DNA of 64,000 nucleotides, from assembly GCA_013289765.1 (NCBI GenBank), contig JABCZI010000008.1, forward strand, positions 124,001-188,000, in the 5' to 3' direction. The notes beneath the pieces were generated by a model. That model had not been told where the DNA came from. It saw only the letters and a list, made by a program, of their open reading frames with translations, and made no database searches. Of the stretch, positions 47,110 through 62,931 are shown one piece after another; positions within the stretch are counted from its first letter, which is position 1; each line of letters begins with the position of its first letter. The translations under genes and the position numbers were made by a program. The DNA comes from Acidobacteriota bacterium (GTDB taxonomy: Bacteria > Acidobacteriota > Terriglobia > Terriglobales > Acidobacteriaceae).

Positions 47110-47185
47110 GGGCGCGTAGCTCAGTTGGTAGAGCAATGCCCTTTTAAGGCATGGGTCGCAGGTTCGAGTCCTGCCGCGCTCACCA
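47110..47185 (+). tRNA. tRNA-Lys(UUU), encoded CCA; integration site
   Basis: Full cloverleaf: GGGCGCG...CGCGCTC acceptor, CTTTTAA anticodon loop, GCAGGTTCGAGTCCTGC T arm, CCA. Confidence 0.97.
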
Positions 47186-48329
47186 CAAATCCTCTGTATT
47201 CACGCACCTTCCGCGTGATTTTCCTCTCAACCCTCCGGGCACTCAATTTCCGATTGTGTCCATTTTTGTGCCTACCTGCAATTGCTATGGTTTCAGCGGG
47301 CTCCTCGCTCATGGCGGCATAAGCCCTGTCAATCGTATCGGCGCTCGGATGCACGTACCGCATGCTCATTTGAATCGAGCTATGGCCCGCAATCTTCATC
47401 AATGTCCAGACATCGCAACCGCTCGCGCCAAGCCGAGTGAGAAAAGTGTGCCGAAGGCTGTACAACACAAACGGTGTGACCTTGGAATCCTTGAGCGCCT
47501 TCTTGTGCATTTTCTTTGTGGAGTCATGTGAGATGTGCTCCGTCTTTGTCGGTGCGGGCCACACCCAACCCGTTGCAGGTTTCCCCTGTGCTTCCCAACG
47601 CGCCTCAAGCGCACCGAGCACGCCGGGCCGCATGGGAATGAAGCGACGTGTGGCGGTTGACTTGCCCGTTAGCACGTGAATTGCGCCGCGCTTGCCCGCA
47701 TTGGGCCATATGATTTGCTCCCATCGTTGTCTGTGCAGTTCATCGGGGCGAAGGCCCGTGTCAAATAGCACCGTGGCAACGTCTTTGAGCAACGGTAAGC
47801 AGACCGCGAGGTAAGCGGCTTCCTCCTTCGGTGTGATGACGCGCTCGCGCCGAGCCTCGCCCGCGAGCAATTGAATCTTGGGTGCAACCTCGATAACACC
47901 CCAATCGGCGGCGAGGCGGAGAATCCGCCGCAACACGCGCAATGAGGAATTGATTGTGCCGGGCACAACCTCTTGGCTCGTGCGCCACGCGGCAAAGCCT
48001 GCCGCGTGCTCGCCCCGAATTTCATCGAGCGGCATACCGGAGAGCGTTGCGTATTTGAGTAGAGCCCGCGTGCCGCTCCTATACCAAACAAACGTTGTGG
48101 GTGAGAGTGCCTTGGCATAAGGCTCGATGCGCCCGGTACAGAATTCCTTGAATGTGGGTGCGGCTTTTTTCTCGCGGATATCAACGAGGCCCTCTGCGAG
48201 TCTCGTGCGGTGCCCGGCTTCAATCTTGCGGGCGGTTTTGTCGCTGCCCGTCTTGGCCGATTCACGAATGACCTTGCCCTTCCACATGAAACGATACCAA
48301 TACACACCACCGCGCTTGTAGATGCCCAT
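47121..48329 (-). CDS. Tyrosine recombinase/integrase
   Basis: VLFDTGLRPDELHRQRW; YSLRHTFLTRLGASGCDVWTLMKIAGHSSIQMSMRYVHP catalytic RHRHY motifs; C-terminus reads through tRNA-Lys/att core. Confidence 0.93.
   Translation of the reverse strand: MGIYKRGGVYWYRFMWKGKVIRESAKTGSDKTARKIEAGHRTRLAEGLVDIREKKAAPTFKEFCTGRIEPYAKALSPTTFVWYRSGTRALLKYATLSGMPLDEIRGEHAAGFAAWRTSQEVVPGTINSSLRVLRRILRLAADWGVIEVAPKIQLLAGEARRERVITPKEEAAYLAVCLPLLKDVATVLFDTGLRPDELHRQRWEQIIWPNAGKRGAIHVLTGKSTATRRFIPMRPGVLGALEARWEAQGKPATGWVWPAPTKTEHISHDSTKKMHKKALKDSKVTPFVLYSLRHTFLTRLGASGCDVWTLMKIAGHSSIQMSMRYVHPSADTIDRAYAAMSEEPAETIAIAGRHKNGHNRKLSARRVERKITRKVREYRGFVVSAAGLEPATHALKGHCSTN
47140..47185 (+). repeat. att core, left copy (46-bp direct repeat within tRNA-Lys)
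   Basis: ccttttaaggcatgggtcgcaggttcgagtcctgccgcgctcacca identical to 62886-62931. Confidence 0.95.
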
Positions 48330-49051
48330 TACTTGGCCCTCCTGCTCGATTTCTTCTGTGCCTGCTCGCGCCACTCGTTGCCGTGTTCGTTCCACCACTT
48401 GTTTGACCGGAGCCGTTGCCCATAAGCCACGCACGGCCCTGCCTCGCAAAACTTTTGCGTGCGGCGCTTTCTCACAAAATAAGGTGCCGGGCAATCCGGG
48501 TTTTCGCATTTCACAGTGTTGCGGGATTCATGGTCAATCAAAAAAAGAATGCAGACCACCGTCCAAGCATCCGGTGCGGTGATGTCGATTCGGCCACGGT
48601 TAAATTTCCATTGTGAGGAGATGTTGGCGGATGCGTGCTGCCTTATTGATTCGATGGCGGCCCGATCACCTTCCCACGCCTTGCGCAAAACATCTCGTTG
48701 TTGATGCAGGTGTGAGATGCCATAGTGATAGAAGTCTGCCTTCGGATGCTCCTTGAGCAACTCGTGCACGCTCTCGTTGGGCGATAGGGGCAGCAAATCG
48801 CGAGCCTGTCCGTTTTTCCACAAGTATTCTTTCGAGGCAAACAACGGGCCGTATGACTCCACAAACTTGAGTGCGGCCTTCTCATCATCCAATAGATTCG
48901 CGAGGGCTACGTGCGGCGGATGCTTCACACCGAACACGTGGAGCGTTTCACCGCCCGCAATTACTGCAATGCTCCCCGCCCGCGCCAAGGCGGCCTTGGG
49001 TTTCACCAATTCCAACGAGTAACGGATTCCGCGTGTTTTGCTAGATGCCAT
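48329..49051 (-). CDS. Zinc-finger (CGNR-like) hypothetical protein
   Basis: C-terminal CENPDCPAPYFVRKRRTQKFCEAGPCVAYGQRLRSNKWW; overlaps integrase start. Confidence 0.65.
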   Translation of the reverse strand: MASSKTRGIRYSLELVKPKAALARAGSIAVIAGGETLHVFGVKHPPHVALANLLDDEKAALKFVESYGPLFASKEYLWKNGQARDLLPLSPNESVHELLKEHPKADFYHYGISHLHQQRDVLRKAWEGDRAAIESIRQHASANISSQWKFNRGRIDITAPDAWTVVCILFLIDHESRNTVKCENPDCPAPYFVRKRRTQKFCEAGPCVAYGQRLRSNKWWNEHGNEWREQAQKKSSRRAK

Positions 49052-59612: not shown

Positions 59613-59662
59613 GGTGAGGCGGTCTTTTGGAAAAGTCACCTCGCGGCAAGGGAAACAGGTAT

Positions 59663-60871
59663 ATGATGGACGACTTCCAACAACAAATTGTCATAGTGGA
59701 AGTCCCAATCAATTCCGAGGTGCTGCGATGGGCCAGAGAGCGCGCTGGCCTCAGCATCGATCAACTTACTAAGAACTTCGTTGACACTTCGAGAATACGA
59801 AGTTGGGAAAACAGCACCTCTCTACCTACATTGGCACAGGCAGAAACGCTTGCGACTAAATTAAGAATACCCCTCCCGATTTTGCTTTTGGACCAACCGC
59901 CAAAAATTCCATTGCCAATCCCCGATTTAAGAACATTGGACAGCCTCTCACCGGGAAATCCAACTCCCGAATTTGTCGATACAGTCAACGATGCTGTTGT
60001 CAGGCAAAGTTGGTATCGCGAGTATGTCCTTACAGAGTCTGCCCGGCCCTTAGCTTTCGTCGGTCAATTCAATCCAACTGACAACGTTTCTACGGTGGCA
60101 CGGTCGATTCGCACCGTGCTTCAGCTTGATGAGCGCCTGCGCCTTCAATGCCGGACGTGGCAAGACTTTCTTAGTAAGTTTGTGCAACGGGCAGACAGCG
60201 CAGGAATAATCGTGATGAGAAATAGTGTTTTTCGCCACGACAACACCCGCAGACTCCTTGTTGACGAGTTTAGAGGATTCGCAATAAGTGATGCCTATGC
60301 CCCCCTTGTCTTCGTCAACAGTCGAGATGCGAAGGCGGCGCAGATTTTCACGTTAGCCCACGAACTGGCTCACATTTGGTTAGGCGCTACCGGCATCTCC
60401 AATCCCGACCCGAGAAAACGGCGCGCGGATTTCAATGCAGTGTTGGAACGGACGTGTAATGAGATAGCGGCAGAAGTGCTCGTTCCGCAAGATAGCTTCC
60501 TACGATTATGGTCAGTTGACAAAACGACGGACGCCAATGTGAAGCAGGTAGCGGCGCACTATCGTGTGAGTTCGATGGTGGCGCTGAGGCGAGCGAATGA
60601 TCTTGGAAAGATCAACGCGGAGGAATTTAAGAGGAAAATTGCTGCCGAGTATGCCCGCTTCCGCGCCATGGAGAAAGAGGAGCAGGAAAAAAAAGAGGAG
60701 GAGAGAAGTGGGAACTTTTGGAACCTATTCGCTATGCGCAACGGCCAACGCTTCACGGATGCCGTGGCCAATGCCGCACGTCGCGAAGCAATACCCTTTA
60801 TCTATGCGTCGCACTTACTCGGCGTAAAAGCGTCCACTCTTGAAAACTACATCAAGCGCTTTCAGGTTTGA
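59663..60871 (+). CDS. XRE HTH + ImmA/IrrE metallopeptidase (COG2856-type)
   Basis: LRWARERAGLSIDQL HTH; FTLAHELAHIWLG (HExxH) protease motif. Confidence 0.88.
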   Translation: MMDDFQQQIVIVEVPINSEVLRWARERAGLSIDQLTKNFVDTSRIRSWENSTSLPTLAQAETLATKLRIPLPILLLDQPPKIPLPIPDLRTLDSLSPGNPTPEFVDTVNDAVVRQSWYREYVLTESARPLAFVGQFNPTDNVSTVARSIRTVLQLDERLRLQCRTWQDFLSKFVQRADSAGIIVMRNSVFRHDNTRRLLVDEFRGFAISDAYAPLVFVNSRDAKAAQIFTLAHELAHIWLGATGISNPDPRKRRADFNAVLERTCNEIAAEVLVPQDSFLRLWSVDKTTDANVKQVAAHYRVSSMVALRRANDLGKINAEEFKRKIAAEYARFRAMEKEEQEKKEEERSGNFWNLFAMRNGQRFTDAVANAARREAIPFIYASHLLGVKASTLENYIKRFQV

Positions 60872-60880
60872 GGAATATTC

Positions 60881-61378
60881 GTGCCAAGGCACTGGCTTGA
60901 CTCTAGTGTGTTCATTACGGCGCGTGACACGATGTTTGCATTCGACATCAATACTTCGTTTTGGAAGTGGATGGGTGAGGCGCTCGAATCAGGCGCTGTT
61001 GTTGCGCCTCGGAAAGTTTACGAAGAACTTGTTGAGAATGTAAGGAAAACAGATGACTTGGCAATATGGGTAAAGACGAGACGCAAGAAAGGCTTGTGCG
61101 TGGAGCCCGACGCGCAGACATTTCAGGCCCTAAAGTCCGTTTCGGATTATCTCTTCCACGGTGGGCGCTACCAGTACCCGTTTGCTCTTGATTTCGTTAA
61201 CGGAGCAGACCCGTGGATTATTGCCCATGCGATGGTGGACGGAGGCACTGTCGTTTCGCAAGAGACAGACAAACAGCCACACGCTAACCGCGTTCGCATC
61301 CCGGACGTGTGTGATCACTTTGGGGTTCCGTGCGTTAAAGTTTGGGAGATGTTACGAAATTTGGGAGCGAAGCTGTGA
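60881..61378 (+). CDS. DUF4411-like PIN-domain protein
   Basis: WLDSSVFITARD, VVAPRKVYEEL, NGADPWIIAHAMVDGGTVVSQE acidic PIN-like residues; adjacent to XRE-ImmA gene. Confidence 0.8.
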   Translation: MPRHWLDSSVFITARDTMFAFDINTSFWKWMGEALESGAVVAPRKVYEELVENVRKTDDLAIWVKTRRKKGLCVEPDAQTFQALKSVSDYLFHGGRYQYPFALDFVNGADPWIIAHAMVDGGTVVSQETDKQPHANRVRIPDVCDHFGVPCVKVWEMLRNLGAKL

Positions 61379-61388
61379 GTTGGGCTTG

Positions 61389-61508
61389 TGGTAGGGATAC
61401 CGGGAGTCGAACCCGGACGCCTTGCGGCAGAGCCTTGTAAGGTGCCGAACTCGCTTTCGTTTCGGCATCTTGGCAAGGCCCCGCGTCTGCCAATTCCGCC
61501 ATATCCCC
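61389..61508 (-). tRNA. tRNA-Leu-like class II tRNA with anticodon loop replaced by an extended hairpin (no assignable Leu anticodon)
   Basis: GGGGATA/TATCCCT acceptor, GCGGAATTGGCAGACGC D arm, TGCCGCAAGGCGT variable arm, CCGGGTTCGACTCCCGG T arm, A73, encoded CCA; 42 nt between the GGGCC and GGCTC halves of the anticodon stem. Confidence 0.85.
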
Positions 61509-61636
61509 CACGAATGAAAGTTATAACATCGAGCTTACGGGTACGGGGTGAACACCCTTCGTTGGTGATTTTGATGGAAAGAAATGGCTCTCTGATGTCG
61601 CGTTCGCGTCTCCGATCACTTTCGTCATAAGGGCTT

Positions 61637-62885: not shown

Positions 62886-62931
62886 CCTTTTAAGGCATGG
62901 GTCGCAGGTTCGAGTCCTGCCGCGCTCACCA
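62886..62931 (+). repeat. att core, right copy (46-bp direct repeat of tRNA-Lys 3' end)
   Basis: Identical to 47140-47185; not preceded by a tRNA 5' half. Confidence 0.95.

Follow-up and report, generated by a model that had tools for sequence, protein, structure and literature searches.

We describe a small conserved family of mobile RNAs in which, as the comparison of homologous sequences shows, a complete tRNA-Leu body, usually with A73 and CCA, carries a helix of roughly 16-20 bp, kept by compensatory mutation, where the anticodon loop should be. The majority are found near a gene for a PIN ribonuclease, which for several of them is the adjacent gene in convergent orientation. With a helix in place of the anticodon loop, RNAs of this family, as encoded, cannot read codons, and we tentatively regard them as mobile, non-decoding mimics of tRNA-Leu whose most likely action would be against the tRNA-cutting PIN toxin encoded nearby, as its decoy or antidote, a mechanism that we infer from sequence. 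To our knowledge, no described mobile RNA gene family pairs a complete, potentially chargeable tRNA body with a conserved helix replacing the anticodon loop.

The window (the whole 64,000-nt stretch of DNA that was analysed) carries one such RNA, of 120 nt, on the minus strand at positions 61,389-61,508, identified by its sequence, by the Rfam tRNA model in local mode and by homologues and their covariation. A first-pass annotation had described here a class II cloverleaf with all its arms, A73 and CCA, and direct reading of the sequence bears this out. The acceptor stem (GGGGATA/TATCCCT) is paired at 7 of 7 positions, G1.U72 included; the D arm has the stem GCG/CGC and the loop GAATTGGCAGA; the T arm reads CCGGG-TTCGACT-CCCGG; the class II variable arm, TGCCGCAAGGCGT (61,417-61,429, minus strand), has a stem that covaries with that of the homologue L493 (GCC/GGC to GGG/CCC); and the discriminator A73 and encoded CCA (ACCA) occupy 61,389-61,392 of the same strand. 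The 7-nt anticodon loop with a Leu anticodon is absent, and exactly 42 nt separate the anticodon stem halves GGGCC and GGCTC. These 42 nt are self-complementary and form the hairpin earlier described, consisting in order of 8 bp (GGGCCTTG/CAAGGCTC), CC opposite A, AAG/CTT, an A.C mismatch, TGCCGAA/TTCGGCA and an 11-nt loop. Together, anticodon stem and extension make a hairpin of 52 nt (61,430-61,481, minus strand), with a conserved CUUG/CAAG and the CC/A kink above it, with a folding energy of -23.9 kcal/mol (z about -5 relative to mononucleotide shuffles). An 80-aa ORF runs antisense to the RNA (61,388-61,630, plus strand; MVGIPGVEPGRLAAEPCKV...); ORFs of this kind are often mis-annotated as proteins opposite tRNA genes.

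Run on the whole window, both ARAGORN at default settings and Rfam at gathering threshold missed this RNA. The Rfam tRNA model (RF00005) in local mode, a check that the first-pass annotation had proposed, recovered it from a 221-nt stretch at 37.0 bits (gathering 29, E=1.3e-6), and no other Rfam family scored above gathering. Default tRNA finders call such RNAs nothing, and tRNA-Leu-like genes of this type are therefore probably overlooked. The literature on anticodon-less tRNAs, phage tRNA introns and tRNA-like antitoxins yielded nothing that matches the window RNA.

Among 27 DUF4411 loci in relatives, one more held an RNA of the same type (L493, genome G606, from another genus of the same bacterial family). 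It aligns in register with the window RNA, with 10 double-sided compensatory changes among 37 pairs, 4 of them in the extension. With a covariance model built from these two RNAs, a search of 330 genomes in this bacterial family found six further RNAs, in G131, G678, G105, G652, G090 and G711; these measure 113-121 nt and score 69.9-116.8 bits, against at most about 71 bits for ordinary tRNA-Leu of ~85 nt. Our set of ten is completed by a relative in G015, of the same genus (L449:2388-2504), with an 11-bp continuous anticodon stem, G73 and no CCA, and by a viral contig (L463:774-885) with a perfect extended hairpin and CCA. The viral RNA comes after a tRNA-Cys-like sequence, and the large ORF behind it is integrase-like by eye and has no Pfam match.

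In these ten RNAs, 95.4% of the pair cells are paired and 99 cells are double-changed; compensatory double changes occur in 30 of the 37 pairs (mean of shuffles 19.6, with 0 of 500 as high, and slid controls likewise far below) and in 17 of the 19 pairs of the extended arm alone, exact counts that lean towards the structure, which was fitted to the same alignment. Every member hairpin folds alone at z -4.7 to -7.5 (mononucleotide shuffles), A73 is present in 9 of the 10 and CCA in 7, and each genome has a single copy. The custom covariance model suggested in the first-pass annotation thus brought out homologues with the same extended arm and compensatory changes within it; a normal 7-nt loop is absent from the close homologues, and the extra hairpin does covary, two points on which the original reading could have failed.

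The bodies of the window RNA, L493, L536 and L537 are 79-90% alike and only 57-76% like host tRNA-Leu; being closer to one another than to these, the core is therefore a family of its own. The bodies of L541 and L549 are nearer to ordinary tRNA-Leu (76-79%), and these two may have arisen independently. The core members (window, L493, L536, L537 and L539) share 5'-UUG ... CAA-3' at the base of the extension and a kink directly above it, which takes the form of a bulged C before CAA in L493, L536 and L537 and of CC opposite A in the window and L539. A pattern search of 396 genomes of the phylum gave no further copy of the window type, and in a model search of 322 phylum genomes the window RNA was the only long copy at E<=2e-14, the other 6 matches being tRNA-Leu of 85 nt. 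The motif GGAANTGGNAGACNCN6TTGCNAAG did not occur in the viral contigs, and a homology search with the whole window against phages and plasmids matched only ordinary tRNA arms. The 13 matches of a GTDB pattern scan with CCA were set aside as essentially all tandem-duplication or masked artefacts, except L185, which is of the virus-like type.

The window RNA sits in an element of ~15.8 kb integrated in tRNA-Lys(UUU), 1.4 kb inside the element end. The left element end is a 43-bp direct repeat that corresponds to the 3' part of tRNA-Lys(UUU) (47,140-47,182, plus strand), repeated exactly at the right att site (62,886-62,928, plus strand), and the element encodes a tyrosine integrase (47,121-48,509, minus strand; PF00589, phrog_1) and a phage-type primase/helicase. 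The RNA fills the gap between two genes and has on its left a pair composed of a protein with HTH (Xre) and Peptidase_M78 domains by Pfam (ImmA/IrrE, COG2856-type; 59,627-60,871, plus strand) and a PIN-type ribonuclease of the DUF4411 family, a putative toxin (PF14367, Pfam E=3.6e-39; 60,881-61,378, plus strand). The latter gene is convergent with the RNA, its stop codon lying 10 bp from the RNA 3' end. DUF4411 is listed among the VapC-type toxins (PMC8790059), and COG2856 (M78)-Xre fusions are reported to be linked frequently to PIN toxins (PMC2701414). The order of the window genes, Xre+M78 protein and then PIN gene, is that of such an Xre/COG2856-PIN module, and the Xre+M78 protein is probably the antitoxin or regulator of the PIN gene.

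Six of the ten RNAs, a small sample of loci, have a PIN-ribonuclease gene at a distance of at most about 1.5 kb, and three (window, L493 and the RNA of G678) adjoin one convergently at 0-10 bp, at unrelated loci and with two different PIN types. L493 abuts a DUF4411 gene, convergent as in the window; the trio lies in G606 at an unrelated chromosomal site, and its proteins are 58% (PIN) and 52% (M78, L533) identical to those of the window. A PIN gene of the PF01850 type is convergent at 10 bp in G678 (L569) and lies at 1.0 kb in G090 (L567) and 1.3 kb in G711 (L568); G015 (L449) has a PIN_12 gene about 1 kb off, with an IS1-type transposase near. No PIN gene was found nearby in the cellular G131, G105 and G652 or in the viral L463. 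As a control, the surroundings of 22 ordinary tRNA-Leu genes from this bacterial family were searched by phmmer with the test PINs themselves as queries, and no PIN was found; nor is a PIN family one of the 25 that Pfam assigns most often to 72 ORFs near ordinary tRNA-Leu, a ranking in which single matches could be hidden.

IS1595 transposases (PF12762/PF12760) stand beside the RNA in four genomes. Terminal inverted repeats (TIRs), 22/24 identical and flanked by CTACCTA, enclose transposase, partner, PIN gene and RNA in G678 (L569:5230-8187), and G711 likewise has a TIR-bounded IS1595-type transposon (L568:3879-7789), flanked by TAAAAATAT. These two transposons, both with target-site duplications, hold the transposase, an unannotated protein of ~265 aa, the PIN gene, (DUF3825) and the tRNA-like RNA, which is the last gene before the right TIR. 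TIRs were not found at the window, G606 or G090 loci.

VapC-type PIN toxins bind tRNAs and cleave them in the anticodon arm. One of them, VapC11, cuts tRNA-Leu(CAG), a tRNA to which the inactive mutant D5A binds at a KD of about 0.5 nM (PMC6265470), so that a mimic of tRNA-Leu could compete. One might thus picture an RNA that would be transcribed and then processed as tRNAs are, by trimming and with a CCA end, that might be leucylated, and that would offer a tRNA-Leu body and anticodon stem with no cleavable single-stranded loop; such a mimic would occupy the PIN toxin as a decoy or antidote, or would set its activation threshold, alongside a protein partner (in the window the Xre-ImmA/IrrE protein), and the trio would move as mobile cargo. 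The original suggestions had included a tRNA that can be charged but does not decode, such as a decoy against anticodon nucleases, and this idea appears strengthened by the covarying arm in the homologues, by A73 and CCA (9/10 and 7/10) and by a PIN gene 10 bp away. Against a decoy, about 45 other DUF4411 loci are without the RNA, which rules out a universal companion of DUF4411, and four members have no nearby PIN gene. The PIN genes also belong to different subfamilies and have different partners, and one RNA family would have to serve several toxins.

An explanation that we consider unlikely, though it is the best of the alternatives, is that the RNA is an independent cargo of defence islands, a free decoy against the tRNA-cutting enzymes of phages or other elements, and that it is found near PIN genes only since both collect in islands and transposons. 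Besides the members with no PIN gene nearby and those beside IS1595 genes, the RNA of G131 is next to a restriction-modification gene and that of G105 next to an AbiEii-like AAA gene, and phage-encoded tRNAs have been proposed to resist host tRNases through changes of the anticodon loop (PMC10264068). However, mere accumulation in islands does not sit well with three RNAs that adjoin PIN genes of different types (0-10 bp apart), always convergently and at loci unrelated to one another.

The insert might also be a novel short intron of a latent tRNA. Spliced by the PIN protein or by host enzymes, a Leu-type tRNA with the loop UUGCCAA (anticodon GCC, glycine) would read glycine codons wrongly and could itself serve as a toxin or stress effector. 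We think this improbable. In all five core members excision can give a 5-bp stem and the loop UUGCCAA with U33, A37 and A38; by estimate this has a chance of about 1.6% if the two relevant positions are random and the sequences independent, a figure that overstates the case because the members are related. ARAGORN with introns allowed reports the window copy as a 'tRNA-Gly(gcc) with 35-nt intron', and phage tRNAs exist that regain a normal anticodon once a short insert is excised. A tRNA-Gly(GCC) is not among the matches listed in the host assembly (G000, 97.6% complete), where the tRNA-Leu genes are TAG, CAA (two), CAG and GAG; but Cys(GCA) and Leu(UAA) are not among the listed matches either, as for a missing contig, and the three probably reflect an assembly gap, perhaps a lost tRNA cluster. 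Against an intron, the splice point is not uniform (34/35 in L536 and L537, 35/36 or later in the window and L539), the other five members do not share GCC, a bulge-helix-bulge is absent, and the insert is too short for group I or II introns; a group I intron was rejected on its length and on the lack of an Rfam match. That no excision gives the window RNA a Leu anticodon, as the first-pass annotation had stated, holds in 9 of the 10 members, the one exception being the G015 relative, which is without A73 and CCA. The short-intron precursor named there as the alternative is weakened, because a Leu anticodon is unrecoverable in those nine and there is no uniform splice point; what remains of it is the UUGCCAA loop that the five core members could yield.

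A role as DNA or as transcript end, in which a tRNA gene has been made into a transposon-end, integration or terminator-like structure, is similarly improbable. The position of the RNA immediately before the right TIR in G678 and G711 would fit it, as would the integrase-like ORF that adjoins the viral copy. However, conserved D and T loops, A73 and CCA are not expected of a DNA structure, the window copy lies well inside its element, and TIRs were not found at three of the loci. A search of 14-20 kb at five loci found no second partial copy of >=13 nt, and a remnant of an attachment or integration site, with a second tRNA copy flanking a mobile segment, was rejected on this result.

We give very little weight to a further version, a transposable latent mis-reading tRNA in which the hairpin would mask a Gly (GCC) anticodon in a Leu-charged body until an active PIN protein cut it and religation produced the UUGCCAA loop; leucine would then be inserted at glycine codons, so that the RNA itself would be the conditional toxin. 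Least likely of all is a tRNA-Leu pseudogene in decay that gained its hairpin by chance insertion, or an error of assembly, to which the single copy per genome and the G015 relative lacking A73 and CCA might point, but which is contradicted by the covariation across ten independent loci and by core bodies that resemble each other more than host tRNA-Leu.

Enlarged anticodon regions also occur in viral tRNAs. At least 120 viral contigs have tRNA-Leu D and T arms that are too far apart, with a fully paired 7-bp acceptor in 98 of 120 among the matches listed, so that each is one RNA. In most of them the anticodon and variable arms are both replaced by diverse structured or pseudoknot-like inserts of 50-80 nt, usually with A73 (for example L091:1404-1529(-), L102:267-377(-), L111 and L067:7179-7283). 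Excision restores no anticodon above the shuffled rate and the variable arm is lost too, and these RNAs were not accepted as members of the window family. In phage class I tRNAs, excision of 26-60 nt from the anticodon arm gives a perfect stem and a normal anticodon in 37 of 73 cases, as it does in several tRNA-Leu. The class I tRNAs (Asn, Lys, Thr, Cys and others, for example L202, L216, L240, L272, L290 and L306) have inserts of 40-58 nt, which mostly interrupt the anticodon stem on its 5' strand (near 28/29) and of which two types recur: a hairpin followed by ACAGCAA, and a stem enclosing a GNAA-type hairpin and ending in GTTACTT. These inserts are possibly an undescribed small intron. Phage tRNA-Leu with inserts of 26-50 nt in the anticodon loop (L080:6617-6733, L450:5454-5572, L458:2206, L460:7383, L461, L104 and L116) yield CTTAAAA or CTCAAAA on excision, and L080 and L450 share the same insert in different tRNA bodies. 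The viral cases differ from the window RNA, and they show that enlarged anticodon regions in the tRNAs of mobile elements are far commoner than expected.

Among known systems, the window RNA shares with canonical bacterial tRNA-Leu (RF00005, class II) the acceptor, D, variable and T arms, A73 and CCA, at 37 bits, and differs in having a covarying extended helix instead of the 7-nt anticodon loop. As in the type III system ToxIN and in CreTA, a toxin function is accompanied by a small RNA that is structured or related to tRNA; however, ToxI has the form of a repeat pseudoknot, CreT is a toxin that sequesters tRNA, and neither is a full tRNA cloverleaf. Bacterial Y RNAs (YrlA) are likewise tRNA mimics with a tRNA-like domain that does not decode; their topology is different and their partner is Ro, and no Ro/TROVE gene was noticed among the genes examined. 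IS1595-family transposons can carry passenger genes, and the G678 and G711 loci share with them transposase, TIRs and target-site duplication; here the passengers are a PIN pair and the tRNA-like RNA. The viral tRNAs discussed above also have intact tRNA ends and an enlarged or replaced anticodon region, but most of them restore an anticodon on excision or also lose the variable arm, and L463 alone among the viral copies is of the window type. The phage tRNAs proposed to evade host tRNases (PMC10264068) are, again, mobile-element tRNAs altered in the anticodon loop; unlike the window RNA, which has no such loop, they still decode. VapBC and COG2856/Xre-PIN type II modules (PMC2701414) have the same Xre+M78 and PIN (DUF4411) order as the window, which adds a third, convergent gene for a tRNA-like RNA.

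If the RNA is a decoy, as we tentatively favour, it would be a third component added to PIN toxin modules and would show how tRNA-cutting toxins can be blunted. Were the RNA instead spliced or charged, it would be either a device for conditional mistranslation or a donor of leucine to non-ribosomal reactions.
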